Shown: piece by piece, positions 1-36,980 of the stretch | Layout: each line of letters starts with the position of its first letter | Numbering within the stretch: position 1 is the first letter of the stretch | Virus record (IMG/VR): IMGVR_UViG_3300044608_002225 | Location: 1-42,409 of that record | Origin: a virus | DNA: 42,409 bases | Direction: 5' to 3' (one strand) | Position numbers and translations under genes: made by a program | Notes under the pieces: generated by a model | Told to the model about the DNA's origin: nothing | Databases searched by the model: none | Seen by the model: the letters and a program-made list of their open reading frames with translations, nothing else

Positions 1-193
1 GGCCGCAGGCTGGCCCGATCGCGACGGTGCCCTGCTCGCGCAGGTACTTCGCGTCGATGAGCGGCTGCATGAGCCCGTACATGGCGGAGACGGTGATGCC
101 GAGCTTCGGCGCGATCTCGGAGACCGGTGCGCCGGGGTTCTCCGCGAACGCGCGGAGCGCCTGCATCTGGCGGCGTGTGATCGGCGGGGTCAC
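1..193 (-). CDS. Winged-helix/HTH protein, 3' end cut by window edge
   Basis: Sixty-four residues are visible from a GTG start at 193. The stretch S-E-I-A-P-K-L-G-I-T-V-S-A-M-Y-G-L followed by I-D-A-K-Y-L is a typical helix-turn-helix plus winged segment of MarR/Rrf2-like size, so a small DNA-binding protein is likely. The GTG overlaps the TGA of the upstream gene (GTGA), which is the same coupling used across this operon and the reason for choosing this start. The C-terminus lies outside the window, so ligand or effector parts cannot be judged. Confidence 0.6.
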   Translation of the reverse strand, partial: MTPPITRRQMQALRAFAENPGAPVSEIAPKLGITVSAMYGLMQPLIDAKYLREQGTVAIGPACG

Positions 194-546
194 TTGCGGC
201 CCTCGCGAAGCATGCACCACACGACGGCACTCGACTGCTCCGGCGGGATCGCGACGCCGTCGATCTCGCGTCGCACCAGGGCGACCCACGGACCCCGGCA
301 GTCGAGTCGCGAGAACCGGTCGATGGCGGAATAGATTGTCGAGTGATAGAGCCGACCGAACGCCGCGGAAATCTCGGGAAGGCTCGGGCTCACCGTCGGG
401 ATCTCGCGGCACGCGAACGCGACCGCCTCGCGGTAACGGCTCGTATCCCGGTCCCTGTCGCGGCTGCGAATGGCGTCCATCGCCTCGCGCCCAAGCAGCG
501 TCTCGCACGCGTCCAACACATTCTGCATCGTCGTTGCCCTCTGCAT
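190..546 (-). CDS. Stand-alone DnaA domain IV-like DNA-binding protein
   Basis: This is a 118-residue protein. Residues about 38-78 match the pattern of the DnaA C-terminal DNA-binding domain: a helix with R-E-A-V-A-F-A-C-R-E, then S-L-P-E-I-S-A-A-F-G-R, then Y-H-S-T-I-Y-S-A-I. The H-S-T of the DnaA signature is intact. There is no Walker A motif and no room for an AAA+ domain. The family binds DnaA boxes, so a phage origin-binding or regulatory role is inferred. The open frame extends upstream, but the extra part is arginine-rich antisense-like sequence over the preceding gene; ATG 546 starts 9 nt after that gene ends. A 14-bp dyad lies 14-34 nt upstream. Confidence 0.65.
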   Translation of the reverse strand: MQRATTMQNVLDACETLLGREAMDAIRSRDRDRDTSRYREAVAFACREIPTVSPSLPEISAAFGRLYHSTIYSAIDRFSRLDCRGPWVALVRREIDGVAIPPEQSSAVVWCMLREGRK

Positions 547-3899: not shown

Positions 3900-4633
3900 A
3901 GTTCCACCGCCTTCGCGGCGTCGCGGCGCGACAGTTGGCCGAACTCGACCTTGACGATCCAGCCCCGCCCCTTGCAGCGGTCGCAGCCCTTGCCGTCGCA
4001 GAACGGGCACGACGCGTGCGGCTGCGCCTCCTTCAGAACATCGACGATCGAGTCGATCTGAAGCTCAAACCCGTTGGTCAGGTGCGGGATATGGTCCTCC
4101 GCTCGCAGGCACTTCGCCTCGTTCTTCAGGCACCGCGCGAGCCTGCGGATCTCGTCGAACCGCTGCATGGCCTCGCGTGCCCGGTCGAGCCGGGTGTCCC
4201 GCTCGTCGGCCTCCGGTTCGGCGTCGTCAAGCTCCTGTGCCGCCTCGCGGATCGCCGCCGCGGTCACCTTGGGCTTGCCGTCGCGCCCAACGGGTGCGGA
4301 CTCCTGCGCCTTCTGGAGCACTTCGGCCCGCCGCTCGGGCTCCACCATCTTCAGTTCGCGAAGCTGGCTTTCGCTAATATCCCCAATTGGGGATATTACG
4401 GAAACCTCCTTGGCGACCTCTGCCGCGTCCATCAGGCGGTATGCCTGCGACTTGCCTATTCCGAACTCATGTTCGATGTAGGTGTAGAAGGAGCCCTCCT
4501 TCTCCCGGTGCAGCTTCTCGTTCCGGATCGTCCACAGGGCCTCACCGACCTCGATGAAGGTCTTCTTGCCGTCGTGAACGACCTGTTCAAGCTCGGCGAG
4601 TCGCTTCGACTCGCTTCGTGTCAGTGCGGTCAT
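3896..4633 (-). CDS. ParB/Kor-like HTH protein with C-terminal zinc motif
   Basis: A 245-residue protein. The N-terminal half has the arrangement G-E-A-L-W-T-I-R-N-E-K-L-H-R, Y-I-E-H-E-F-G-I-G-K-S-Q-A-Y-R-L, then S-E-S-Q-L-R-E-L and V-T-A-A-A-I-R-E-A, known from ParB/KorB-like DNA-binding regulators of phages and plasmids. A coiled region follows (about 140-185). The C-terminus carries C-x2-C-x-G-x-G-C-x2-C-x-G-x-G (Cys209, 212, 217, 220), like one DnaJ zinc unit. A 24-bp perfect palindrome inside the gene encodes I-S-P-I-G-D-I-S (about residues 80-87) and recurs in non-coding DNA at 32770. A partition or regulatory role at that palindrome is inferred. No ParA-like ATPase is visible. Confidence 0.7.
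   Translation of the reverse strand: MTALTRSESKRLAELEQVVHDGKKTFIEVGEALWTIRNEKLHREKEGSFYTYIEHEFGIGKSQAYRLMDAAEVAKEVSVISPIGDISESQLRELKMVEPERRAEVLQKAQESAPVGRDGKPKVTAAAIREAAQELDDAEPEADERDTRLDRAREAMQRFDEIRRLARCLKNEAKCLRAEDHIPHLTNGFELQIDSIVDVLKEAQPHASCPFCDGKGCDRCKGRGWIVKVEFGQLSRRDAAKAVEL
4375..4398. repeat. 24-bp perfect palindrome, copy 1 (inside ParB-like gene)
   Basis: The half-site TAATATCCCCAA is followed directly by its exact reverse complement. The same 24 bases occur at 32770-32793. It is AT-rich at its ends in otherwise GC-rich coding DNA. The position within a ParB-like gene recalls parS sites inside spo0J/parB genes; that comparison is established knowledge, the function here is inference. 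Confidence 0.85.
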
Positions 4634-6661: not shown

Positions 6662-7615
6662 TCAATACTCTTTCCGAACATTTTTCGGATTGTGGATAAT
6701 CGGTGGAAGCAGTTCGCTCGCCTCTCGCATCTCCTCGATGCGGACGAAGTCGTAGTGCTTCTGCGTGGTCTTCGGGTCGCGGTGCCGTGCGATCATCTGC
6801 ATCGCCCGGACGGTCGCTCCCCGGCTCGCCCGTTCGGTGATTGACATCTTGCGGAACCGGTGCCACTCGCCCGGCTTGTCGGCGAGCCCGGCCCGCTCCA
6901 TGTCACGCACGAGGCTGTGATGGCTCGGGACCGACGGGAACACCATGTCGCCCGATGACCACTGCGACCACGATCGCAGCAGTCGCACCGTCTCGCGGTC
7001 GAGCGGGACGACATGCTGGAGCCCGCCCTTCGCCTGCGTCACGACCATGATCGCCGCAGGCAGGTCGATGTCCGCCCACCGCTGGACGCGTGCCTCCGTG
7101 TGTCGCAGCCCGGTCCTCGCCAGGAACGCGTAGAAGTTCGATCGCAGCGGGCCGAACCGTGCGGCCCTTCCGTCGGTCGCCTCGACCTCTGCGGTGCTCC
7201 TGACGAGCCGCCTGACCTCGTCCAGCGTGAAGGGATCGCATCCCCGGGTGAACGGCACGCGCGGCAGCTTCAGACCGCGAAGCGGATTCGACGCAAGCCG
7301 CTCGACGGACACCAGCCAGTCGGCGAACGCCCTCAGCGCCGCGGCGTCGTTGAGTTGCGTTTTCCGCCCCGTCCCCTTGGCGGACCGGTCGGCGAGGAAA
7401 CGCATCACAGCGATCGGGCGGAGATCCTCGACCGTCGTCGCGCCGGAATGCTCGATGAACCACGCGATGACCCGCTCGACGCGGCGACAGTGATCCCGCG
7501 CGTATCCGAGCCGGTCTCGGATATCGCTCAGGTGCTCCGCGGCATCGCGGATGATGCCACCGCCGCTGTTCGTGAGTCTGACCATCGCAGGTAGGGCACT
7601 CGCCCAAGCCTGCAA
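6662..7615 (-). CDS. int: Tyrosine recombinase (phage integrase)
   Basis: 317 residues from TTG 7615 (307 from ATG 7585; the start is uncertain because neither has a strong ribosome-binding site). Numbered from the TTG, the catalytic set is complete: Arg171 in T-G-L-R-H-T-E-A-R, Lys196 in the beta-hairpin, H252-x-x-R255, His278 and Tyr288 in H-Y-D. The N-terminal half is an SAM-like core-binding domain. It should recombine attP at 6466 with a host tRNA/ssrA end. It lies last in the late-direction gene run, next to an HTH gene that may be its directionality factor. A dyad operator overlaps the TTG. Confidence 0.9.
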   Translation of the reverse strand: MQAWASALPAMVRLTNSGGGIIRDAAEHLSDIRDRLGYARDHCRRVERVIAWFIEHSGATTVEDLRPIAVMRFLADRSAKGTGRKTQLNDAAALRAFADWLVSVERLASNPLRGLKLPRVPFTRGCDPFTLDEVRRLVRSTAEVEATDGRAARFGPLRSNFYAFLARTGLRHTEARVQRWADIDLPAAIMVVTQAKGGLQHVVPLDRETVRLLRSWSQWSSGDMVFPSVPSHHSLVRDMERAGLADKPGEWHRFRKMSITERASRGATVRAMQMIARHRDPKTTQKHYDFVRIEEMREASELLPPIIHNPKNVRKEY

Positions 7616-15750: not shown

Positions 15751-16914
15751 TCAGATGTTCCCGTTTGCGATGGCGACAGCGAGGCCCGTCGAAAGGCCCG
15801 AAGCGGCCGCCCATGTCTGATCCCCGCGAAGGAAAGTCGTCGCGTTCGCCGTGCCGGAGCCGAGTCGCGCCGTCGCGACCGTTCCGCTCGTGATGTCCGC
15901 AGCCGCGTGCGTGTGGATGGATGCCGCGTATCGGCTGTCTGCGTCCGCACGGGTCGGAACGCTCGTCGATGCGGCGACGCCGAGCGCCCGCTTCGTGAAG
16001 GTGTCCGTGCCCGTCTGCTCCACGAGCCCCGCAGTGCCGTCGAGAGCCGCGAGTGCCGTCAGCGTCGCGTCAGCCGACTGGAACGCCGTCGACGCCTGCG
16101 TGGCCGCCGTGCCGAGACCCAGCGTCGTTCGCTGTGCCGATGCGTCCGCGTCGTCGAGAATAGCCTTCCCCGCCGCGGTAATGTCGCCGCCGAGCTTCGA
16201 AGTACCCACCGCGTTCGCGTTGATCGTCCAGGTCGGACCGATCACCGAAATCGTGATGTCGCCCTTGTTCCCGTCCGCCACGATCGACTCGACGCTGTCT
16301 AGCCGCGAGTCGAGCTCGCCGTAGATGCTGTCCGCGTAGCCCTTCGCCGCGAACTGCGTCGGCACGCGAGAGGACGAAGCGGCCGTCATCGCCGCATCGT
16401 TGTCTGACGCCAGAGCCGCCGCGGTGCCCGCGTCCGTGATCTGCGAAAGCGTGTGCGTGTGACTCGTCGCCGCCGCCCCCACGGATGCGGCCGTCAGGCT
16501 CACATCGCCGGTCTGGCCGTTCACCGAGGTCACCGCGCCGCCGCCCTCTCCGGCAGCGGTTCCGTCGTCGATCTCGTCGGTGAAGTCGTCGGCGGCCGTG
16601 CCGTCGGTGTACTCGTCCGCGAAGTCGTCGGCGGCCGTGCCGTCGTCGATGTCGGTGATCTCGGCCGATCCGACGAACGGCTCCCAAGTCACGGGATCGT
16701 CATCGGTGAGCGTGTAGTAGGTCGCGTCCGCCGTGACATAGCACAGCATCCCCACCTGCAACCGGCTGGCCGGGATCGCGTCTCGCGCGGCGATGCTCGC
16801 CACCGAATGGCACCCGCCGCGGCCGTAGTTGGCGAAGTGCGACGGATAGCTGTCCGTCGGGGCAAGGGGTCCGATCGGAGCGTCGACTCGGGTGACCGGC
16901 TCGGTCCACGACAT
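15751..16914 (-). CDS. Tail fibre protein, first gene of third late block
   Basis: 387 residues from ATG 16914 (a GTG at 16938 is possible; no strong ribosome-binding site at either). Residues 1-95 form a compact domain; three 13-residue acidic repeats (D-G-T-A-A-D-D-F type) follow. Then comes a fibre shaft typical of phages: V-N-G-Q-T-G-D-V-S-L-T, S-H-T-H-T-L-S-Q-I-T, Y-A-A-S-I-H-T-H-A-A-A-D-I. The tandem GTGAGGCC element ends 96 nt upstream of ATG 16914, matching the distances at the other two late blocks, which supports this start. Confidence 0.8.
   Translation of the reverse strand: MSWTEPVTRVDAPIGPLAPTDSYPSHFANYGRGGCHSVASIAARDAIPASRLQVGMLCYVTADATYYTLTDDDPVTWEPFVGSAEITDIDDGTAADDFADEYTDGTAADDFTDEIDDGTAAGEGGGAVTSVNGQTGDVSLTAASVGAAATSHTHTLSQITDAGTAAALASDNDAAMTAASSSRVPTQFAAKGYADSIYGELDSRLDSVESIVADGNKGDITISVIGPTWTINANAVGTSKLGGDITAAGKAILDDADASAQRTTLGLGTAATQASTAFQSADATLTALAALDGTAGLVEQTGTDTFTKRALGVAASTSVPTRADADSRYAASIHTHAAADITSGTVATARLGSGTANATTFLRGDQTWAAASGLSTGLAVAIANGNI
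16546..16644 (-). repeat. 39-bp in-frame tandem repeat in tail fibre gene
   Basis: The D-G-T codons recur at 16644, 16605 and 16566, exactly 39 bp apart, and 25 bases at 16582-16606 and 16621-16645 are identical. The third copy is degenerate. The repeat encodes D-G-T-A-A-D-D-F plus five acidic residues, so copy number changes would stay in frame. Confidence 0.75.
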
Positions 16915-17009
16915 GCACCGCAATCGTGGCGAAGTCACGGACAGAATCGGCGGGAAGGACCGGGTAACTGGCCCGGATTGGCCCCGGACCGCCCTTCCGC
17001 AGCCGATTT

Positions 17010-17028
17010 GGCCTCACTCTGGCCTCAC
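17010..17028 (-). promoter_or_regulatory. Tandem GTGAGGCC late element, copy 1
   Basis: The plus strand reads GGCCTCACTCTGGCCTCAC, i.e. two GTGAGGCC units 11 bp apart on the minus strand. The same 19-mer occurs at 32735-32753 and a two-base variant at 27837-27855. It ends 96 nt before ATG 16914 and also lies 36 nt upstream of the plus-strand moron. I see no convincing -10/-35 after it, so it may bind an activator or an unusual polymerase factor. Confidence 0.6.
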
Positions 17029-25160: not shown

Positions 25161-26213
25161 TCAGGTGAAGCAGGTCTGGAGGAGAACCGCCGACGCCGGA
25201 GCGGTGACCTGCGGATCGCTGTTGTCGGTCACGCCACCGCGGAGCCGACGGTTGATCTGCTGGTCCTCGCCGCCGCCGAAGGTCTCGATCGTCATGTCCT
25301 CGTAGGCGAAGATCGAGCACGCCGAGAAGGTCGGAACGCCCTCGACGCCGATCAGGCCGCCCGGGCGACCGAGGAACATCACGACATTGTCCGGACAGAC
25401 ATAGGTCTTCGTCTGCGTCGAAGCGCCGCGGCGGGTCGTGACCCGAACCGCGTCCTCGACGACGACATCGCCGAGACCGAACATGTTGCCGGGCAGGTTC
25501 CAGGTCGAGAACTCGCGGGAGCCCTTGAGGAACTCCATCGCGGCGGGGTAGTTCTTGACATAGTTCCGGATCTCGGGCTGCTGGCTGATCGTCTTCGCCG
25601 TGTTCGGGTTGACGACCATCACGACCGACTCGGGACCGACGACGCCTGCGGTGTTCAGTTGGATTCGCTGGATCGCAGCCTGAATGCCTTCCTGAATGTT
25701 GGCGTTGTCGGCTCCGGAGTTCCACGGCTTCGCGCCGCCGACGAGTGCGTTCGTGTTCGCGAAGAGGTTCTCACCGGAGGTGTAGTTGCCGGTCGCCTGA
25801 AGCTGCGTCCAGGTGCGGAGAGTCCGGCGGGTCATCGCCTTCGTCGCTGCGATCCGGGCGTGCATGGCGACGACATCGAACTTCGCGCTGTCCTGCGTCT
25901 CGTTCGGAACATGGAACGAGTCGCTGAACCGCTTGCACGCGAACTGCGGGGTAAGGTCGACATCGACCGGATCGCCCGTCGGGCGGTCCTGACCGATCGG
26001 CCAGACGCCATCCTGCTCGGTCACGATGCGAACGGCGTTGTTCGGATCGACGCGCATGTAGTAACCGGCAAGCTGCGTCACGGGGATGAGCTGCGTGTAC
26101 CGGTTCAGCTTGAAGAACTTGGGGGACCGAGTGAACTCGATCTGGAGCGATCCGGTAGCGGCCGGATCGAATGCGGGGGTGAAGGTGTTCATCCCTGCGC
26201 CAACTGCGGGCAT
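25161..26213 (-). CDS. Major capsid protein
   Basis: 350 residues. The order protease/scaffold, decoration protein, then this gene is that of Mu-like heads, and its length fits an HK97-fold capsid protein. Visible features are a spine-like helix (D-V-V-A-M-H-A-R-I-A-A-T-K-A-M-T-R-R-T-L-R-T-W), N-P-N-T-A-K-T-I-S near 205, and a C-terminal beta region with F-A-Y-E-D-M-T-I-E-T-F-G. A downstream 13-bp hairpin suits high expression. Confidence 0.8.
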   Translation of the reverse strand: MPAVGAGMNTFTPAFDPAATGSLQIEFTRSPKFFKLNRYTQLIPVTQLAGYYMRVDPNNAVRIVTEQDGVWPIGQDRPTGDPVDVDLTPQFACKRFSDSFHVPNETQDSAKFDVVAMHARIAATKAMTRRTLRTWTQLQATGNYTSGENLFANTNALVGGAKPWNSGADNANIQEGIQAAIQRIQLNTAGVVGPESVVMVVNPNTAKTISQQPEIRNYVKNYPAAMEFLKGSREFSTWNLPGNMFGLGDVVVEDAVRVTTRRGASTQTKTYVCPDNVVMFLGRPGGLIGVEGVPTFSACSIFAYEDMTIETFGGGEDQQINRRLRGGVTDNSDPQVTAPASAVLLQTCFT

Positions 26214-26246: not shown

Positions 26247-26654
26247 TTACGACAGCTTCACGCGGAAGCCACGGTTCCAGATGCACTTGATCTTCGCGCC
26301 GGCGCCGGCCGCGCTCTCGAGTGCGGTGAAGGGGAACATCGCGGTGCCCGACGAGGTCGCCGCGGTGATGACCCGGCCGTTGGAGTCGACTTCGAGGTTC
26401 GCGCCGCGGGTGATCGCCGCGCCGGCCTCGATGAGCAGTTCGGCTCCGGCCTGAAGCGGAAGCGGGTCGCCCGCGATCGCACAGAGGGCCGAGTCGAAGC
26501 GGCGGGTCGTGTCCTGCGCGACGCCGATCACGATCTCGGTCGCGGCGGTCGCCTGCAGTCCGGTGTTGTCGGCCGAGGTCGACAGCTTGACGACGCGGCA
26601 CGGCGAGATGTCGCCGCCCGCGATGAGGTTGGGAGTGTCAGAGAATGCGCCCAT
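26247..26654 (-). CDS. Head decoration protein (DUF2190-like)
   Basis: 135 residues with a GGAGG ribosome-binding site. It is Ala/Gly/Thr-rich and beta-dominated: I-A-G-G-D-I-S-P-C-R-V-V-K-L-S, I-V-I-G-V-A-Q-D-T-T-R, L-L-I-E-A-G-A-A-I-T-R-G-A-N-L. This matches small capsid-cementing proteins encoded directly before the major capsid gene. Confidence 0.75.
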   Translation of the reverse strand: MGAFSDTPNLIAGGDISPCRVVKLSTSADNTGLQATAATEIVIGVAQDTTRRFDSALCAIAGDPLPLQAGAELLIEAGAAITRGANLEVDSNGRVITAATSSGTAMFPFTALESAAGAGAKIKCIWNRGFRVKLS

Positions 26655-26672: not shown

Positions 26673-27743
26673 TCAGCCCGCGATGTGCTTCTCGACGAGC
26701 TCGCGGTACTTCGCGGCGTCGCCTTCGGCCTGCTTCTGGAACTTCGCCACGGTCTCGGCGTCGAGATCGCGTCGCGATCCGCCGGTCTTCGTGCCGCTGG
26801 TGTTGATGCGACCGGAATCGCCGAGCGGAACCTTGCGGCCCGTCTTGCGAATCCAGGCGACTTCCTTCGCCCGGTCCGACGCGGACATCAGGCGGTCGAA
26901 CATCTCCTGACGGACATCGCCGCCGTACGCGAACCCGTCACGCTCGAGATCGCCAAGCAGCTTCTCGCAGTCGAGACGCTTCGCCTCGGTCTCGATCGCC
27001 TCAAGCCGCTTCTGAAAGTCGGCACGCTCCGCGTTCCATGCGGCCTGCGCCTTCTCGAAGTCGCTGCGGGCGCTCTCGCTCGCCTTCTGGAAGTCGTCGC
27101 GCTGGCGGGTGAGGGCGCCGATCTCGGCGTCCTTCTGCGCGACCACCTTGTCGGTGTCCTCGTCCATGTCGTCGTCCTTTCGTCGCTTGCCCTTCTTCGT
27201 GGGCAGCAGTTCCGGAACCGTCGGCGCGGACGAGAGGTCGAAGTGCACCGCCCCGTCCATCACCAGTTCGAGGGGCTCGCCCTCACGCTCGAAGTGGGTG
27301 TCCTCCAGCGGACGCGCGGGCGTCTCGTTGCCCAGCAGCGACACCTCGCTGAAGTGACCGTCGGGCCAGATTTGGGCCGAGCGGCGACACCACCGATTGC
27401 TCTTGATCCGCGACTCGAAGTCCTCGCGCGACATCTCGACATCGCCGCGGAGATAGCTCGCGTCCGCCGTGTGGTCGGCACGCACCGCGACCACGCGACC
27501 GCAACACTCCGGCCGGGCGTTGTCCTTGCCCGTGTGGCGCTCGATGACCTGCGGGAACTGGCCGATCGCCATCCGGTCGCGGGTCACGCCGACGATCTCG
27601 TCGATCCGCTTCGCGTCGAACTTCTCCAGCTTCGAGCCCGGTCGGTCGAACTTCCGGTGGAAGCCACAGAACAGCCCGAGGTCGCGGATAACGACCCTGT
27701 CGCCGAGGAAATCAACGCGATGAGAACCCTTGAGGGCGTTCAT
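26673..27743 (-). CDS. Capsid protease/scaffold (Mu gpI-like)
   Basis: 356 residues. The N-terminal half (to about 185) is a compact domain with R-V-V-A-V-R-A-D-H-T-A-D-A, E-M-S-R-E-D-F-E-S-R and F-S-E-V-S-L-L-G-N-E, like phage prohead-protease domains. A Lys/Asp-rich hinge follows, then a long coiled coil (about 205-265: K-D-A-E-I-G-A-L-T-R-Q-R-D-D-F-Q-K), the usual scaffold, ending with Y-R-E-L-V-E-K-H-I-A-G. Catalytic residues are not certain. It is the first gene after the second tandem GTGAGGCC element, whose near end is 94 nt from the ATG. Confidence 0.7.
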   Translation of the reverse strand: MNALKGSHRVDFLGDRVVIRDLGLFCGFHRKFDRPGSKLEKFDAKRIDEIVGVTRDRMAIGQFPQVIERHTGKDNARPECCGRVVAVRADHTADASYLRGDVEMSREDFESRIKSNRWCRRSAQIWPDGHFSEVSLLGNETPARPLEDTHFEREGEPLELVMDGAVHFDLSSAPTVPELLPTKKGKRRKDDDMDEDTDKVVAQKDAEIGALTRQRDDFQKASESARSDFEKAQAAWNAERADFQKRLEAIETEAKRLDCEKLLGDLERDGFAYGGDVRQEMFDRLMSASDRAKEVAWIRKTGRKVPLGDSGRINTSGTKTGGSRRDLDAETVAKFQKQAEGDAAKYRELVEKHIAG

Positions 27744-27836: not shown

Positions 27837-27855
27837 GGCCTCACCTTGGCCTCAC
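27837..27855 (-). promoter_or_regulatory. Tandem GTGAGGCC late element, copy 2 (variant)
   Basis: Plus strand GGCCTCACCTTGGCCTCAC; only two spacer bases differ from copies 1 and 3, while both 8-mers are intact. It overlaps the end of the MuF-like gene and ends 94 nt before the ATG of the protease/scaffold gene. A 12-base palindrome TGGTCATGACCA lies between (27806-27817). Confidence 0.6.
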
Positions 27856-28697
27856 GAACGACGCCATCCGCGATCGGGAATCAGGCCCGCGTCGATCAGC
27901 AGTTCGCGATCGCCGTTCATCGCCGCGAGAGCGCCGGGCACCGGAACGCCGTTGCGGAACAGGCCGTCCCGCTCGGCTTCCTCCATCGTCACGGGCACCA
28001 GCGTGCAGCGGCAGTGCATCCCGTACGGGGGCAGCAGTCCGCGGCGACGAAACTCACGCATCGGTGCGGTGTAACCGCTGAACTGGAAGTGCCGGTGCGG
28101 CTCCGGATAGCGGCCGTTCGGATTGCCGCGGTTCACCTCGTCGCGGATCGCGACGCTTCGCCACAGCGGCGCGGAGTCGACCACCGCCGGAAGCGATGCG
28201 GTCTCCGCAAGCCCTTCGTGGAACGCCGAGAGCATCGCCTGCGACACCGCACGATCGAACCGCGATCGGATCTGGGCGATCGACTCCGTCGCGGGCTCAT
28301 CCGTGACGCCCGACGCGACCGCGACGCGCACCGCATCCCGAGCCGGCGGCGCGACGGACGCGATCACCTCGTTGACGAGCCTCGTGCCGACATCGACGAC
28401 GCGTGCGGCCTGCGGACCTGCGGCGTCCGCCGCGGCCAGAGCGGGCCGGGCGATCGGTGGAACGCTCGCGGCGGTCTGTCGCACCCACTCGCGGAAGTCA
28501 CCGGACGGGACGGGCAGTCGCTCGCCGGTCAGCGTCCACGCGCGGCGGATGCCGAGCATGAGCGCAAGGCCGATCGCGATCTCGACGAAGCCCTTCAGCT
28601 TGCGTTCGGTCTCCGGTTCGCGGTCGACGAGACGGCCCCGCATCGACCTGATGCGTGCCATCGCCTCCGCCTCGATTCTGTCGAGCCCCGGCGTCAC
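27852..28697 (-). CDS. MuF-like head morphogenesis / minor capsid protein
   Basis: 281 residues from GTG 28697, overlapping the portal stop (GTGA). The C-terminal part holds the MuF/SPP1 gp7 signature: S-A-P-L-W-R-S-V-A-I-R-D-E-V-N-R, then P-P-Y-G-M-H-C-R-C-T-L-V-P-V. The N-terminus has a hydrophobic stretch (I-A-I-G-L-A-L-M-L-G-I). These proteins enter the capsid with the portal. Neighbours confirm the role. Confidence 0.85.
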   Translation of the reverse strand: MTPGLDRIEAEAMARIRSMRGRLVDREPETERKLKGFVEIAIGLALMLGIRRAWTLTGERLPVPSGDFREWVRQTAASVPPIARPALAAADAAGPQAARVVDVGTRLVNEVIASVAPPARDAVRVAVASGVTDEPATESIAQIRSRFDRAVSQAMLSAFHEGLAETASLPAVVDSAPLWRSVAIRDEVNRGNPNGRYPEPHRHFQFSGYTAPMREFRRRGLLPPYGMHCRCTLVPVTMEEAERDGLFRNGVPVPGALAAMNGDRELLIDAGLIPDRGWRRS

Positions 28698-30250
28698 TCA
28701 TCGCCCTCGTCGATCGTCACGAGCGTGTCGAACAGGCCACGGACCGAAGCGCGGTCGAACTCGTCGCGCTCGCCCGGAGTGCGGACGGGATGACCGTTGC
28801 TCGCGCCCTTGTGCCCGGCGTTCGCCGTCACCGCACGACCGCCCATCGGACCGCCACCGGCCGGACCGAAGAACGCGTTGATCGTTTCGAGGCTCAGCGT
28901 CCGCTGGCCCGGTCGCGGCTTCGCGAGTCCGAGCCGCTGGATGACATCGTCCTCGGCGACCTCGGCGCCCATGTCGATCGCGCCCTTCACCGCGTCCATG
29001 AACACGCCGACATCGGGATCGGCGATCGCGTAGCGGAAGGTCGGATAGTGCTCCTGTGGGCCCCAGTTCATGTCGACGAGCGGGACGATCAGTTGACGCT
29101 GGATCGTCTCCTCGAGCCCGCGTGCGACATACCGCTGATGCCGGTTGAAGGTCTTCGCGTGTTGCGTCGAGACGCCGAGCCCCATGCCGCTGCCGCCCTT
29201 CTCGGTCGTCGACGACTGGCCGATGACGAGTTCCTTCAGGTTGACCGACGCCCAGTCGATGAACTCGAGGAACACCTTCGCCTTGCTTGCGGCGGCCTCC
29301 ATGATCTCGATGTCGTAGTCGTCCTTCATCCCGGATGGCTGGCCCGGCTGGCGGGGGATCTTCACCGAGACATCGCCGACCAGGTTCGCGAGAATCTGGT
29401 CCATCGCCGACTCGGCCTCCTTGTTGCCCGCGGGGTAGTAGCCCTTGCGGATGCCGGTCGCGTACCGCTCGAGATAGGTCGACCAGTTCTGCAGGCCGGT
29501 CTGCTTCATGAGCCAGACATACCAGCAGACATCGCGGAGCCCGCGGCCGAGGAACGCGTAACCGGCCTCGTCGACCGAGTCGAAGTCGCCGCCGCGCCGC
29601 TGGAATGTGTGGATGATGACGCACGCACGCTCTTCCGGCGTCAGCGGATGCACGCGCGAGTCGAAACCGATCTTGGTCTCGGCGTCCGGATGCTCCTGAA
29701 CGAACTGGTTCCCGACGCGGAGTCCGATCTCGCCGTCCATCGTCACGGACAGCGTGTCCGGATGGATCGGGAGCCAGCCGCCGCCGGTGATCTGTCCGCG
29801 ACGGTTGCGGGTCCAGAGGATGTTCACCGCGCTCGGCCCGTACCACACCGCCTCGAGCAGCGCGCCGCACATGTCGCTGAACTGCGGGATCTCCTCGATG
29901 AGGTCGCGGACGCCGTCGGCGATCCGCTCGCTCGCACGGCCGCGGGCGAGCTCGATGTGCCAGTCGTTGCCGACGATCGAGGTCTTCAGGTTCTGGATCG
30001 GACCCTCGATGTCGGGGTCGTTCCGCATCTGCCGGTGCAGTGCCGGGTCGCGTCGCTTCGCGAGGCTCGGGTTCCGCAGGATGCGCGAGATCGTCGTGTA
30101 GTAGGCCCGCTGAAGCTGCGTCGGCATCGCGATCGGCATCTGCCGCAGCAGCGCGTTCGCCGCCTCGACATGCTCGGGCGGGATGCCCTCGGCCGGATCG
30201 CCGGGCGGCAGCAGGATGTCGGTCACGGTGTCGATGGTCGCGTCAGCCAT
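28694..30250 (-). CDS. Portal protein (Mu gp29-like, DUF935)
   Basis: 518 residues. Typical features: R-M-R-N-D-P-D-I-E-G-P-I-Q-N-L-K-T-S-I-V in the N-terminal crown, W-Y-V-W-L-M-K-Q-T-G-L-Q-N-W-S-T-Y-L-E-R-Y near 245-265, and the stem-forming K-V-F-L-E-F-I-D-W-A-S-V-N-L-K-E-L-V-I-G-Q region. It overlaps the terminase end by 8 nt. The portal forms the dodecameric DNA channel in the head vertex. Confidence 0.9.
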   Translation of the reverse strand: MADATIDTVTDILLPPGDPAEGIPPEHVEAANALLRQMPIAMPTQLQRAYYTTISRILRNPSLAKRRDPALHRQMRNDPDIEGPIQNLKTSIVGNDWHIELARGRASERIADGVRDLIEEIPQFSDMCGALLEAVWYGPSAVNILWTRNRRGQITGGGWLPIHPDTLSVTMDGEIGLRVGNQFVQEHPDAETKIGFDSRVHPLTPEERACVIIHTFQRRGGDFDSVDEAGYAFLGRGLRDVCWYVWLMKQTGLQNWSTYLERYATGIRKGYYPAGNKEAESAMDQILANLVGDVSVKIPRQPGQPSGMKDDYDIEIMEAAASKAKVFLEFIDWASVNLKELVIGQSSTTEKGGSGMGLGVSTQHAKTFNRHQRYVARGLEETIQRQLIVPLVDMNWGPQEHYPTFRYAIADPDVGVFMDAVKGAIDMGAEVAEDDVIQRLGLAKPRPGQRTLSLETINAFFGPAGGGPMGGRAVTANAGHKGASNGHPVRTPGERDEFDRASVRGLFDTLVTIDEGDE

Positions 30251-31706
30251 ACTTCAGCCTCCAGAGCCTGCCCTTGCCGCTCGAAACGGTCGTCGGCCTG
30301 TGGTCGGCACCATAGCCTCCGCGGCCGACCGACGACATGAATGTCACCGCCGCGTCGACGCAATCGTCGTGCTCGCTCGCGGGGAATGTCGACAGCTCAT
30401 CGTAGAGCGGACGAAGCTCCTCGATCGGCTCACGCAAGTCCCGGTCGGACCGCATGCGGAGCCTGCCCTGCTCGACGAAGGTCTGCTGCTCCGTCGCCCG
30501 GGTCATCTTGTCGGCGCTCCGCTCGACCATGTGCCAGCGGATGCTCGGGTACTCCGTCTGCATCTGCTGCACGAGCCCACGCTGCGGACCGCTCGCCTCG
30601 CAGAAGACATCGCGGATGCCCATCGACATGCACAGCGACGCCGCCTGCCGCTTGAACTCGGGGAAGCTCTCGCGGACGCGGAGCATCCGCTCCACCCACG
30701 CGTCGCCCTGCATCGACCTCCGGCCCGCGATGAGCACCGAGTAGTCCGGGTTCGGCTTGTCGGATGACTTCTTGTTGAACGCGAAGTCGATCGAACCGAC
30801 CGGCGTGCCCGTCGACCTGACATGGTCGGGCATCTCCCACCAGAAGCCCTGATCGAGCCACGACGAACGGAACACGATCTGGTCCGTCGACACCGGCACA
30901 AGCTCGTAGGCCCTCGCGTACGCGAACGCCCCGAACTCCTCGCGGATCTCCCGCATCGCCTCGACCGACCACCGCTCGGGCCACGGGCTGACGAAGTCGA
31001 CCACCGGCCGACGGAACAGGCTGCCGCGCTCGCCGTGATACCGGCGCCAGTCCGCGGTGATGTCCGCGACATGGTACGGCGTGCCGATTCGCCATGTCCG
31101 CGGCGGGTTTTCGAGGTTCGTCCGGTCGCGGGTCGGAAGCCAGTTGTTCTTGACGAAGTCCTTCACCTGCTCGCGCGAGGACGGCTGCATGATCGCGTTC
31201 CGCATGTCGCAGATGTCGTCGAACACGAGGAGGTCCGACCGGCCGCCGGCGCGACCGAGCACCGGAACGGCCTCGATCGTCGGGTCGCGCAGGCTCGCGT
31301 TCGGCCTCTGCACCGTCAGTGCGGTGTTGCCCCAGTTGTCCTTGTCCCGGCGGATCTCCGGGAACACCATCTGGAACTCGTCGCCCTCCATGATCCGCTT
31401 CACCATCGTGACGGTCTTGCCCGCCTCGGCCTCGTTGCTGCCGACATACTTGATCCGGATGTTCGGATTCGATCCGATCTCCCACGCGAGCCGAAGGCCG
31501 AGCGTCGCCGTCTTCGAGTGACCACGCGGCAACTCGACATAGCTGTTCGCCCCTTCCGGCGAACTCCAGAACGCCTGAAGGTCCTCCTGTAGCTGGCCGT
31601 TCTCGACATTGCCGACGAACTGCTGGAAGAACGACGGCACGCGGCGGCACGCGATCAGGAACTCTTCCGGCGACAGCGACTCCTCGGCGTGCACGGCTTC
31701 GGTCAC
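30243..31706 (-). CDS. terL: Terminase large subunit
   Basis: 487 residues from GTG 31706, overlapping the beta-helix stop (GTGA). ATPase: P-loop variant P-R-G-H-S-K-T (60-66) and Walker B L-L-V-F-D-D-I (159-165). RNase H-like nuclease: D307 in S-I-D-F-A-F, and the late E-H-D-D-C-V-D-A. It cuts and pumps DNA into the prohead through the portal encoded next. No small terminase is evident upstream, where a beta-helix gene stands instead. Confidence 0.92.
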   Translation of the reverse strand: MTEAVHAEESLSPEEFLIACRRVPSFFQQFVGNVENGQLQEDLQAFWSSPEGANSYVELPRGHSKTATLGLRLAWEIGSNPNIRIKYVGSNEAEAGKTVTMVKRIMEGDEFQMVFPEIRRDKDNWGNTALTVQRPNASLRDPTIEAVPVLGRAGGRSDLLVFDDICDMRNAIMQPSSREQVKDFVKNNWLPTRDRTNLENPPRTWRIGTPYHVADITADWRRYHGERGSLFRRPVVDFVSPWPERWSVEAMREIREEFGAFAYARAYELVPVSTDQIVFRSSWLDQGFWWEMPDHVRSTGTPVGSIDFAFNKKSSDKPNPDYSVLIAGRRSMQGDAWVERMLRVRESFPEFKRQAASLCMSMGIRDVFCEASGPQRGLVQQMQTEYPSIRWHMVERSADKMTRATEQQTFVEQGRLRMRSDRDLREPIEELRPLYDELSTFPASEHDDCVDAAVTFMSSVGRGGYGADHRPTTVSSGKGRLWRLKYG

Positions 31707-32641
31707 TGGCCGACCTCCACCCTCGCGTTCGGCGGCACATACACGCCCGGGCCCGTGATCGAGCCGACCGTCACGCCCCGCCACTCGCAGCGGTCGAGCA
31801 GCTCACGCGTCGCCGGATCGCTCGCGTAGATCCCCTTCCGGAACTCGCAGTCGACGAACACGCCCCGGTCAAGCCTCCGCATCCCAAGGTGCAGCGGCTG
31901 CCCGAACCGCACCCCACGCCACGAGAGATCCGAACACCCGACCGTGATCCGGCTCGCCCACACCTGACCGGCCGGGCGGTCCGCAAAGTCGCAGCCCTCG
32001 ACCGCCGCAGACATCACGCCCGGACTCGACGCCGAACCGAGCACCGTCCAATGCAGGTACTGAGCCGAACACGGACGCTCGCCCACCCGCAAGCCCCGCA
32101 ACTCCACCCGGTACTCGCCCATCCCAGCCGTCCACTCCGGCCGGAACACCTGGTGCACATCCGGATGCGAACCCCCACCGCCCGGCACCTCGCCGACCGT
32201 GCAGCCCTCCACCAGCCGACACCCGCTCAGCACATCCGATCGGATGTCCTCGAAGCCGCTCCCCCTCACCTCGTCAGCGTTCACCGGACCGTTCAGCGTC
32301 CCCGTCCAGCGGCAATCACTCACCTCCGCCAGCCTGCAGGTCGTGAACACATCCGCCACGCTCGACGACGAGCCCGGACCCCTCACCCAGCACCTTCGAA
32401 GCCGCACCACCGTCTTCCGCGACACGAACCCCACGAACCACGATCCGCTACCCACCTCCAGCGTGCAGTCCTCGAGCGTCAATCCCCCCAACGCCACCCG
32501 GTGATCGACCGACGAATACACCACCGCCCGACGCATGTCGCGGCCGACAATCGTCAGGTTATCCCCAGCCACGCTGCCGCTGTCACGCCAGCAATCGCGC
32601 AGCGTCGTCTGCCCGTCGACGAAGATCGTCCGGTCCGCCAT
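31703..32641 (-). CDS. Right-handed beta-helix protein (tailspike-like fold)
   Basis: 312 residues from ATG 32641 (upstream open frame rejected by composition). It shows repeating rungs of short strands with regular Cys/Val/Asp turns: L-T-I-V-G-R-D-M-R-R-A-V-V-Y, L-T-L-E-D-C-T-L-E-V, V-V-R-L-R-R-C-W-V-R-G, A-E-V-S-D-C-R-W-T-G, G-V-F-V-D-C-E-F-R-K-G. This is the pattern of pectate-lyase-type parallel beta-helices of tailspikes. It is the first gene of the packaging block, an odd site for a fibre gene. No catalytic triad is apparent. Confidence 0.65.
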   Translation of the reverse strand: MADRTIFVDGQTTLRDCWRDSGSVAGDNLTIVGRDMRRAVVYSSVDHRVALGGLTLEDCTLEVGSGSWFVGFVSRKTVVRLRRCWVRGPGSSSSVADVFTTCRLAEVSDCRWTGTLNGPVNADEVRGSGFEDIRSDVLSGCRLVEGCTVGEVPGGGGSHPDVHQVFRPEWTAGMGEYRVELRGLRVGERPCSAQYLHWTVLGSASSPGVMSAAVEGCDFADRPAGQVWASRITVGCSDLSWRGVRFGQPLHLGMRRLDRGVFVDCEFRKGIYASDPATRELLDRCEWRGVTVGSITGPGVYVPPNARVEVGQ

Positions 32642-32734
32642 GCGGACATCTTCCCGACGGAATCCGAACTTCACCCCGCAGACACGCGAAAACGCCCGCG
32701 GAAACGCCCATCCACCCACCACGCGGCACCCGTC

Positions 32735-32753
32735 GGCCTCACTCTGGCCTCAC
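32735..32753 (-). promoter_or_regulatory. Tandem GTGAGGCC late element, copy 3
   Basis: Identical to the 19-mer at 17010-17028. It ends 94 nt before ATG 32641, the same distance as copy 2. It lies 16 nt from the 24-bp palindrome, so the late block and the gene-free region share one control segment. Confidence 0.6.
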
Positions 32754-32769
32754 TGTCGTGCCATTTCAA

Positions 32770-32793
32770 TAATATCCCCAATTGGGGATATTA
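32770..32793. repeat. 24-bp perfect palindrome, copy 2 (non-coding)
   Basis: Half-site TAATATCCCCAA followed by its reverse complement, identical to 4375-4398 inside the ParB-like gene. It stands between the late element (32735-32753, minus) and a plus-strand promoter (-35 at 32814), a place where a bound dimer could control both directions. Confidence 0.85.
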
Positions 32794-32813
32794 GCGTTAC
32801 CGCAGCCGGACCC

Positions 32814-32841
32814 TTGAAACTCGCGACACGGTCGCTACGAT
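32814..32841 (+). promoter_or_regulatory. Sigma70-type promoter into the gene-free region
   Basis: TTGAAA, a 16-nt spacer, then TACGAT. It points rightward into the 870-nt stretch with no credible gene and lies 20 nt downstream of the palindrome. If active it would make a non-coding transcript, antisense to the flanking minus-strand genes. Confidence 0.4.
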
Positions 32842-33625
32842 GCCCGCAACAGACATCGTCGGATCGCCACTGTCGAAGGCCCGCCCCACAAGGGCACCAA
32901 CGGCGGAATCGCTCCGGCCACAGGTCGCGGAAAACGCGATAGCCCGGTTGAGGCCGGCACGGGATGGAGCCCCTACCCACAACCGGGGCATCTCAGGATC
33001 AACCAACGATCCAGAGTCGCAAACCCCGCAGCACCCCGCGAGACGATGCCCCCATTACGGCAACTTCGCAGGAAGCGTCGCATGCAACGGCCCTAACGAG
33101 TAAAGGCCAGACCAGCGGGATTGCGGCAACACGCCCTACGCGACCCGCCTGGGCGGCACGGTCAGATACCGTGGGGGGAGCCCAAGTCACCACCCGCCGA
33201 TGCGAGACGGCATGAAAGGACGCAATGACTTGGGGTTCGGGTGCGCGCAGCACACCCCGGGATCGAAAACAACTCACGGCGCGGGGAGAGGGGTTAGAGC
33301 CTACCCCCTGCCTCGATTCTCGGCATCCCCGAAGGGGGGGTCACCATCCCCACCGACACGGAACCCCACTGGCGCTAGCGCCAACGCGTCAACGATGGAC
33401 CGATCGTTGCCACCCTGCACCCTAACACGCACACCGCAGGGGAACTGCCAGGGGAACCCACGCCGACCGCTCAGCGTTAGCCCCTCCGCTTGCCTTGCTG
33501 TCCCTGCACCGGCTACGCCTGTCGACGCTCGCAGGTGCCGCCTTGCGGTGGAGCCGTGATCCGCGGTGGGGTGACCCTGCACGGTGGTACGGCTGTTCGG
33601 GTTGAGTGTGGCTTGCCGGTGGTGC
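32842..33625. other. Gene-free, inverted-repeat-rich region
   Basis: No open frame here has convincing composition or a ribosome-binding site. Seen instead: CCCGGTTG paired with CAACCGGG (32943-32987), GGATC/GATCC (32996-33012), CCCAAGTCA with TGACTTGGG (33181-33189 and 33226-33234), a 14-base palindrome TGGCGCTAGCGCCA (33370-33383) and a direct repeat CAGGGGAAC (33437, 33449). It could be an origin, a packaging site near the terminase block, or a structured RNA from the promoter at 32814. I cannot choose between these. Confidence 0.5.
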
Positions 33626-34257: not shown

Positions 34258-34286
34258 TTGCACAATGCCGATGTGCGGGGTAGACT
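34258..34286 (+). promoter_or_regulatory. Sigma70-type promoter of the plus-strand operon
   Basis: TTGCAC, a 17-nt spacer, and TAGACT, 37 nt before the ATG at 34324, whose leader carries AAGGAG. This is the best sigma70-like promoter I can see in the window. It lies between divergent genes. On the other strand TTGCAA, 16 nt, TACGCT would start a nearly leaderless message for the HTH gene. Confidence 0.6.
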
Positions 34287-34308
34287 GGTGGAGTCCAGCC
34301 GACGGACA

Positions 34309-35857: not shown

Positions 35858-36583
35858 ATGAACGCAACCGCCTACCTTCGCGTCTCGACCGACGAGCAAG
35901 CCTCATCCGGCCTCGGGCTCGACGCCCAGCGTGCAGCCATCGAAGACGCCGCACGCCGTCAGGGCCTCACCGTGACCGCGTGGCACACCGACGCGGGCCT
36001 CAGCGGCTCGCTGCCGCCCGAGGAACGCCCCGGCCTCACAGCGTCCCTAGGCTCGCTTGCGAAGGGCTCCGTGCTTCTCGTCGCCAAGCGTGACCGGCTC
36101 GCACGCGATGTCCTCGTGATGTGCCTCTTGGAGCGTGACCTCGCACGCCGCGGTTGCCGCATCGTGTCGGCCGCGGGCGAGGGCACCGAAACGGAAGGGC
36201 CAGCCGGATTCCTCCAGCGGACGATGCTCGACGGGATCGCTCAGTACGAACGCCTCCTGATCGCGTCGAGGACGAAGTCAGCCCTCGGTGCGAAGCGCCA
36301 CGCCGGCGAGAAGACCGGCGGCCATGTTCCGTACGGGTATCGTATCGCAGGTCACCGCATCCGCGGCGGGAAGTCCGTTCCGGTTCTCGAAACCGACCCT
36401 GCCGAGCAATCCGTGATCGAGCGAATCTGCCGCCTCTGGCGTGCCGGTCACACGGTCCGCTGGATCGCCCGCGAACTCGACGCCGCCGGTGTCGCGAGCC
36501 GGAGCGGCAAGCCTTGGGCGCACCAGCTCGTCGCGAAGATCGTGCGGCGTGCGAACCTCCCCGCAGCGGTCGCGGCCGCTTGA
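35858..36583 (+). CDS. Serine recombinase (resolvase/invertase family)
   Basis: 241 residues. Resolvase domain: Y-L-R-V-S-T-D-E-Q with catalytic Ser10 and Arg8, D-R-L-A-R at 79-83, and M-L-D-G-I-A-Q-Y-E-R-L-L-I near 130. A recombinase domain follows (H-A-G-E-K-T-G-G-H-V-P-Y-G-Y, E-R-I-C-R-L-W-R-A-G-H-T, I-A-R-E-L-D-A-A-G-V). It is shorter than large serine integrases. Because a tyrosine integrase with its att site is present, this enzyme may resolve multimers, invert a segment, or have arrived with the cassette. It ends the plus operon before a strong terminator. Confidence 0.9.
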   Translation: MNATAYLRVSTDEQASSGLGLDAQRAAIEDAARRQGLTVTAWHTDAGLSGSLPPEERPGLTASLGSLAKGSVLLVAKRDRLARDVLVMCLLERDLARRGCRIVSAAGEGTETEGPAGFLQRTMLDGIAQYERLLIASRTKSALGAKRHAGEKTGGHVPYGYRIAGHRIRGGKSVPVLETDPAEQSVIERICRLWRAGHTVRWIARELDAAGVASRSGKPWAHQLVAKIVRRANLPAAVAAA

Positions 36584-36653: not shown

Positions 36654-36980
36654 TCACTCGACGGGGATCTTCGCTCGGCACTGAGGGCAGTAGCAGACCC
36701 GTCGCGCCCGGCCCGTTGCCGAGACTCGACGCGAGGGTGTCCGGATCTCCTGCCGTCCGACCGCGGTCGCACGGTAGACCCACGGCGAGCCCGGTATGGG
36801 CTCGAGATAGCCGCCGTTGACGAGCCAGACGACATGATGCCGGACGGACTCCTTCGTGATCCGTAGCCGCCCTGCGATGACCGTCTGGCGAAGGGGAATC
36901 CGTGCCGCGTGCTCGACATAGTGCCGGAGGATGCGACGACCCATGATCGTGATCTCGCCCGATACGCGATGCGATGCCAT
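36654..36980 (-). CDS. Winged-helix protein with C-terminal Cys pair
   Basis: 108 residues. The HTH core is L-R-Q-T-V-I-A-G-R-L-R-I-T-K-E-S-V-R-H-H-V-V-W-L-V-N-G-G-Y-L, then a wing (W-V-Y-R-A-T-A-V-G-R-Q-E-I). The end has C-Y-C-P-Q-C, possibly a zinc knuckle. Its ATG overlaps the LexA-like stop (ATGA), so the two DNA-binding proteins are made together. Likely an early regulator. Confidence 0.65.
   Translation of the reverse strand: MASHRVSGEITIMGRRILRHYVEHAARIPLRQTVIAGRLRITKESVRHHVVWLVNGGYLEPIPGSPWVYRATAVGRQEIRTPSRRVSATGRARRVCYCPQCRAKIPVE

Follow-up and report, generated by a model that had tools for sequence, protein, structure and literature searches.

Late gene blocks and the tandem elements that precede them

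The window analysed here is the entire 42,409-bp record IMGVR_UViG_3300044608_002225 of IMG/VR, which represents an uncultured bacterial virus. Its late genes lie on the minus strand in three blocks, referred to here as A, B and C (Table 1); block B also holds connector and tail genes. Each of the gaps opening these blocks contains one copy of a tandem element of the form GTGAGGCC-N3-GTGAGGCC. This pattern occurs exactly three times in the window, in all cases on the minus strand, and element 2 overlaps the TGA stop codon (27852-27854) of the preceding head gene. Our search recovered the coordinates given in the initial annotation, which had reported a 19-mer present exactly at 17010 and 32735, and with two mismatches at 27837. 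The 11-bp period of the 8-mers that it had described proved to be a perfect 8-3-8 tandem in all three copies.

Table 1. Features of the phage contig discussed in the text, in order of position
Feature	Position	Strand	Remarks
DnaA C-terminal HTH-only small protein	190-528		Pfam E 5e-8
ParT/ParB-like predicted DNA-binding protein, 245 aa	3896..4633	-	homolog of SCP2.04c (ParT)
Perfect 24-bp palindrome TAATATCCCCAATTGGGGATATTA, second exact copy	4375..4398		inside the ParT-like gene, at the SPIGD codons
Tyrosine recombinase	6662-7585
Tail fibre-like gene (first of block C)	15751..16914	-	from gene calls
Tandem element 1	17010..17028	-	GTGAGGCC AGA GTGAGGCC; upstream of the fibre block (C)
Major capsid gene (block B)	25161-26213	-	follows scaffold gene
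Scaffold gene (block B)	26247-26654	-	follows protease-like gene
Protease-like gene (first of block B)	26673..27743	-	start codon kept in L007
Tandem element 2	27837..27855	-	GTGAGGCC AAG GTGAGGCC; upstream of the protease/scaffold/capsid/tail block (B)
Head gene (block A)	27852-28697	-	follows portal gene
Portal gene (block A)	28694-30250	-	follows TerL gene
TerL gene (block A)	30243-31706	-	follows first gene of block A
First gene of block A	31703..32641	-	beta-helix predicted in the initial annotation; no family match
Tandem element 3	32735..32753	-	GTGAGGCC AGA GTGAGGCC; upstream of the beta-helix/terminase/portal/head block (A)
Perfect 24-bp palindrome TAATATCCCCAATTGGGGATATTA	32770..32793		16 bp upstream of element 3; putative parS-type site
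HTH_17-type protein, 69 aa	33985..34194	-	below Pfam cut-off; upstream of the late region; third candidate binder
Serine recombinase	35858-36583
108-aa protein	36654..36980	-	at the early operon's end; by eye resembles a winged helix; CYCPQC at the C-terminus; second candidate binder
LexA DNA-binding-domain-only protein, 80 aa	36980..37222	-	Pfam LexA_DNA_bind E 1e-9; PDB LexA match; candidate binder

The tandem elements are real and non-random. Dinucleotide-shuffled sequences yielded zero matches to the 19-mer, even when three mismatches were allowed, and in none of 200 order-3 Markov simulations did any 8-3-8 unit recur even twice. Among all perfect 8-3-8 tandems in the window, GTGAGGCC is the sole recurring family, and the next-best matches (3-4 mismatches) are at background level. 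No strong tandem site other than these three was detected in the window, and none near early genes; single GTGAGGCC 8-mers are present elsewhere at 4538, 35963 and 36032, all within coding DNA.

In the initial annotation each copy was said to end 94-96 nt before the first ATG of a block. We counted 95, 93 and 93 nt between elements 1, 2 and 3 and the ATG codons at 16914, 27743 and 32641, respectively. The near-constant gap (93-95 nt) to these codons thus stood, with the third value depending on the choice of start: in the first gene of block A, a GTG at 32674 lies upstream in the same frame and was favoured by a crude gene caller, and the spacing of element 3 is therefore either 93 or 60 nt. 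Among the three start codons only that at 27743 is backed by a relative (L007). Gap positions that precede a co-directional start by 50-150 nt account for ~1.8% of the minus strand, so the probability that all three elements fall in such gaps by chance is ~6e-6.

Flanking sequences and distribution of the element

Comparison of the three flanks revealed agreement limited to the element itself (~20 bp), and no shared -10 sequence at a fixed distance from it. The earlier remark that no usual -10/-35 is evident was borne out: a search around elements 1 and 2 gave no sigma-70-like promoter, none is shared, and the only one in the surroundings of element 3 is on the opposite strand. At elements 1 and 2 a search for terminators between the blocks was also negative, and a sigma-70 promoter or a terminator was rejected as the identity of the element. 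Neither an RNA family match at the elements nor a leader fold common to the three downstream regions was detected, and a shared fold was likewise rejected as the basis of the element. Since the conservation covers only ~20 bp and no RNA structure is shared, a DNA site recognized by a protein is favoured. Elsewhere in the window, a promoter of the early rightward operon (TTGCAC-17-TAGACT) can be read by eye near 34260-34295, the long stretch 33000-33600, which separates the HTH_17 operon from the late block, is devoid of a convincing gene, and the single DnaA box match lies away from the elements.

An exact scan of IMG/VR for the N3 pattern returned 18 stretches, among which only sibling contigs from the same sample were relevant: element 3 is identical in one of them (L005) and element 2 in another (L006). 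SNPs are clustered in both siblings. The region from 32558 to 33271, which includes element 3, is identical between the window and L005 over 714 bp, without a single SNP; because this stretch looks like a recent recombination, which would explain the identity of element 3 equally well, that identity is not taken as a sign of selection. L007 (DNA ~83% identical) is the one close relative that is independent, and at its homologous gap element 2 is not conserved (12/20 positions). Scans with TerL, the protease, a tail protein, the 108-aa protein and the LexA-domain protein led to the siblings and L007 only, and for the last two proteins a sibling contig was the only match.

The capsid gene has 40-50% relatives in many uncultured phage contigs; no phage isolate matching the capsid protein was found, and it had no relatives among the genomes searched. 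In ten capsid-sharing contigs the late genes showed no comparable repeat, nor did the gene calls leave a gap ahead of the homologous protease region. The motif search of the phage and its relatives, proposed in the initial annotation, has thereby been carried out: there are three copies in the window, the siblings keep elements 2 and 3, L007 does not keep element 2 at the homologous gap, and the ten capsid-sharing contigs have no comparable repeat. As element 2 is not kept in L007 and the 40-50% relatives are without it, the element is either lineage-specific or fast-evolving.

Other repeats were observed in the capsid-sharing contigs. In L016, L017, L022, L041, L059, L061 and L065, as well as in further contigs of this kind, TTCTCCCGCCCCGGCGCGAAGGCGAAG is repeated upstream of the capsid gene; it reads FSRPGAKAK, its copies being spaced by multiples of 3 in those checked, and is apparently an array of short related coding units. 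Contigs G012 and G026 carry a repeated upstream GTAGAAATATCTGAAGAAAT with a nearby repeated palindrome, CAGCCGGG(G/T)CGGCTG, in gaps. These two sequences may constitute another control element, shared within this phage group.

When 84,980 genomes were scanned for the exact pattern, 13 scattered matches were obtained, most of them inside genes and none in more than two places per contig (one contig had two). With ~7.5 matches expected by chance (our own estimate, at equal base frequencies), this is about the chance level, and a host regulon sharing the element was rejected.

A palindrome shared by the putative late control region and a ParT-like gene

The 24-bp palindrome near element 3 is present in only two copies in the window, and the gene that holds the second copy encodes a protein similar to SCP2.04c (34% over 116 aa, E 2e-13). 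The latter, ParT of SCP2, is a CTP-independent ParB-like clamp with an 18-bp parS inside its own gene (PMC12260392). The phage protein gave a weak structural match to the DNA-binding domains of Spo0J/ParB/Noc/SopB (none at E below 0.001). Its N-terminus is too short for a ParB CTPase domain, and, as in ParT proteins, a helix-turn-helix middle domain is present without a CTPase domain. As in ParT-parS systems, the inverted repeat lies inside its own coding sequence. With its 18 bp, TGTCTCCAATTGGAGACA is the longest perfect palindrome of SCP2.04c; it encodes SPIGD, and we infer, tightly, that it is the published parS. In both SCP2 ParT and the phage protein the SPIGD palindrome is situated just after the helix-turn-helix region. 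Since the palindrome is duplicated and its intragenic copy occupies the homologous position at the SPIGD codons, the phage probably carries two parS-type sites, and, judging from these sequences, one of them is probably in the late control region.

Analysis of the ParT homologs revealed a 14-24 bp palindrome at the same position in most of the ParA-neighboured ones and in a Euhalothece homolog; those bearing it include homologs from Streptomyces, Actinomadura, Spirosoma and Emticicia, among others. The palindromes often carry the same TCCCCAATTGGGGA core despite differing genome composition. A few homologs (e.g. L138, L142, L146 and L148) are without an intragenic palindrome. On plasmids of Spirosoma (L141) and Emticicia (L151), ParT-like homologs beside ParA have a differing intragenic palindrome, TTGTCGGAAATTTCCGACAA, which encodes LSEISDK at the same position as the SPIGD palindromes and possibly represents a second parS-type specificity in Bacteroidota.

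The phage thus resembles SCP2 in having a homologous protein and an inverted repeat at the same codons within its gene; in contrast to SCP2, it is not a plasmid, no ParA was found among the ORFs tested, and the second copy of the site is placed in the late control region. The neighbours of the ParT-like gene encode a DNMK-like kinase and an ERF protein, not ParA. Because ParA was not detected among the ORFs tested, a regulatory use of ParT/parS in the phage is plausible. No palindrome was found near elements 1 and 2, and the closeness of the palindrome to element 3 could be partly due to chance, as noncoding DNA is limited in the contig.

Candidate regulators and the proposed control of late transcription

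Several small predicted DNA-binding proteins are encoded by the phage, among them the DnaA C-terminal-like one at 190-528. The LexA-domain protein, located at the end of the early operon, is without the LexA C-terminal domain and is attractive as a binder because of the precedent of 11-bp direct repeats: the LexA box of alphaproteobacteria is GTTC-N7-GTTC (PMC3323433), with the same period. The half-site differs, however (GTTC versus GTGAGGCC in the phage); the GTTC/GAAC half-sites of known LexA relatives are absent at all three elements, and the GTTC-N7-GTTC matches in the window lie away from them. The adjacent 108-aa protein had no Pfam match, and its single-sequence structure model was uninformative. 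The Pho box, composed of two 11-bp direct repeats (PMC3978041), and other OmpR/PhoB winged-helix operators likewise present two direct repeats on one helix face, but their sequence is different, the binder is a host response regulator and not a phage protein, and no PhoB-type protein was found among the ORFs searched. The Pho and LexA boxes are thus precedents for the geometry of the element, not for its sequence.

In phage P2, several late operons share one activator site, that of Ogr (PMC3931495). The likeness lies in a short shared site before each of several late operons and in the expectation of a phage regulator; the P2 site is TGT-N12-ACA, whereas in this phage it is a direct tandem repeat. 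The three matches to TGT-N12-ACA in the window are at chance level, with none near the three elements. No Ogr-type zinc finger (CX2CX22CX4C) was detected among the ORFs searched in Pfam, the 108-aa protein having CYCPQC only.

The initial annotation had suggested that the element may be the site of a phage late activator or another unusual promoter class. The placement, orientation, uniqueness and late-block restriction of the elements fit a shared regulator site, whereas a -10 at a fixed distance was not found and element 2 is not kept at the homologous gap of L007. A shared late-regulator site appears to us the best reading of the three elements, with about an even chance of being correct. 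Their sequence, orientation, positions and rarity are observed, while protein binding, activation and the choice of the protein are inferred. The elements would be copies of one asymmetric operator, each bound head-to-tail by one phage-encoded regulator and marking the starts of three late transcription units; the two 8-bp half-sites, 11 bp apart, would offer the same helix face to two subunits. The regulator would most likely be a late activator that is expressed from the early operon and brings the host RNA polymerase to weak promoters lying between element and first gene. The LexA-domain protein, the adjacent 108-aa protein or the HTH_17 protein could be the binder. Element 3 would be the main late start, where the probable parS-type palindrome of the ParT-like protein may add a second layer of control. 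It is conceivable, if on balance unlikely, that a CTP-independent ParT-like clamp, loading at this palindrome and in its own gene, forms the late switch jointly with the direct-repeat binder.

Alternatively, the elements could be operators or stoperator-like sites, asymmetric and in one orientation in the intergenic gaps of one long operon, at which, in the lysogen, a phage repressor keeps transcription from initiating or from extending into the late blocks. Lysogeny is plausible, since the phage encodes two recombinases (tyrosine and serine), and the lack of a detected terminator at elements 1 and 2 suits a single operon. The stoperators of cluster A mycobacteriophages (PMC9283540) are also asymmetric, intergenic and co-oriented with transcription. 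However, they are single 13-mers dispersed genome-wide, more than twenty in L5-type phages and including early promoters, whereas here only three tandem sites are present, all at late blocks and none near early genes. We attach a low probability to repression, and activation by the putative late regulator is more likely.

A lock on late transcription that is released upon induction, with a small KorA-like protein on element 3 and a KorB-like ParT clamp at the palindrome acting together as silencers, has a precedent in RK2, where the KorB clamp is used with KorA as a repressor and the distance between operator and promoter is either 4-10 bp or ranges from 45 bp to over 1 kb (PMC11790492). The distance of 16 bp between palindrome and element, the duplication of the palindrome in the ParT-like gene and the failure to find ParA among the ORFs tested point in this direction; elements 1 and 2, however, have no nearby palindrome, and ParT is CTP-independent and has so far been described for partition, which renders this arrangement quite improbable.

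Even less probable is a function at the RNA level, in which the element, ~95 nt ahead of the start codon, would serve for antitermination or for the control of translation. Such a role would agree with the near-constant spacing to the ATG codons and with the weak ribosome sites of the block-first genes. It would also agree with the 64-nt inverted repeat (AATCGGC...GCCGATT, 16945-17008, w/o a T-tract) immediately downstream of element 1, whose hairpin is strong (z -2.9 for a 70-nt window), and with the GGCC-N7-GGCC within the element, which can form a small hairpin. However, the leaders share no fold, the structure after elements 2 and 3 is unremarkable, the GGCC hairpin is missing from the best fold of element 2, and no U-tract follows the hairpin after element 1. 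The least probable explanation is that the copies are selfish or recombination sequence that was duplicated recently and has no part in regulation, as the absence of the element from relatives and the identity of two of the three copies over 19 bp might suggest, but the flanks are unrelated beyond ~20 bp and all three copies are co-oriented and placed just before late blocks.

As a kind, the putative late-control element is modest in novelty; the ParT/parS association is the more novel and surprising part compared with the late-activator reading. The element provides a concrete candidate for a late-control site, together with a small set of candidate regulators, in a lineage for whose capsid protein no isolate relative was found. 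The palindrome ties the putative late control region to ParT, a family that was described only recently and so far for plasmid partition (PMC12260392). With the conserved intragenic palindrome at the SPIGD codons as a simple sequence signature, sites of this type could be sought in further plasmids and phages.
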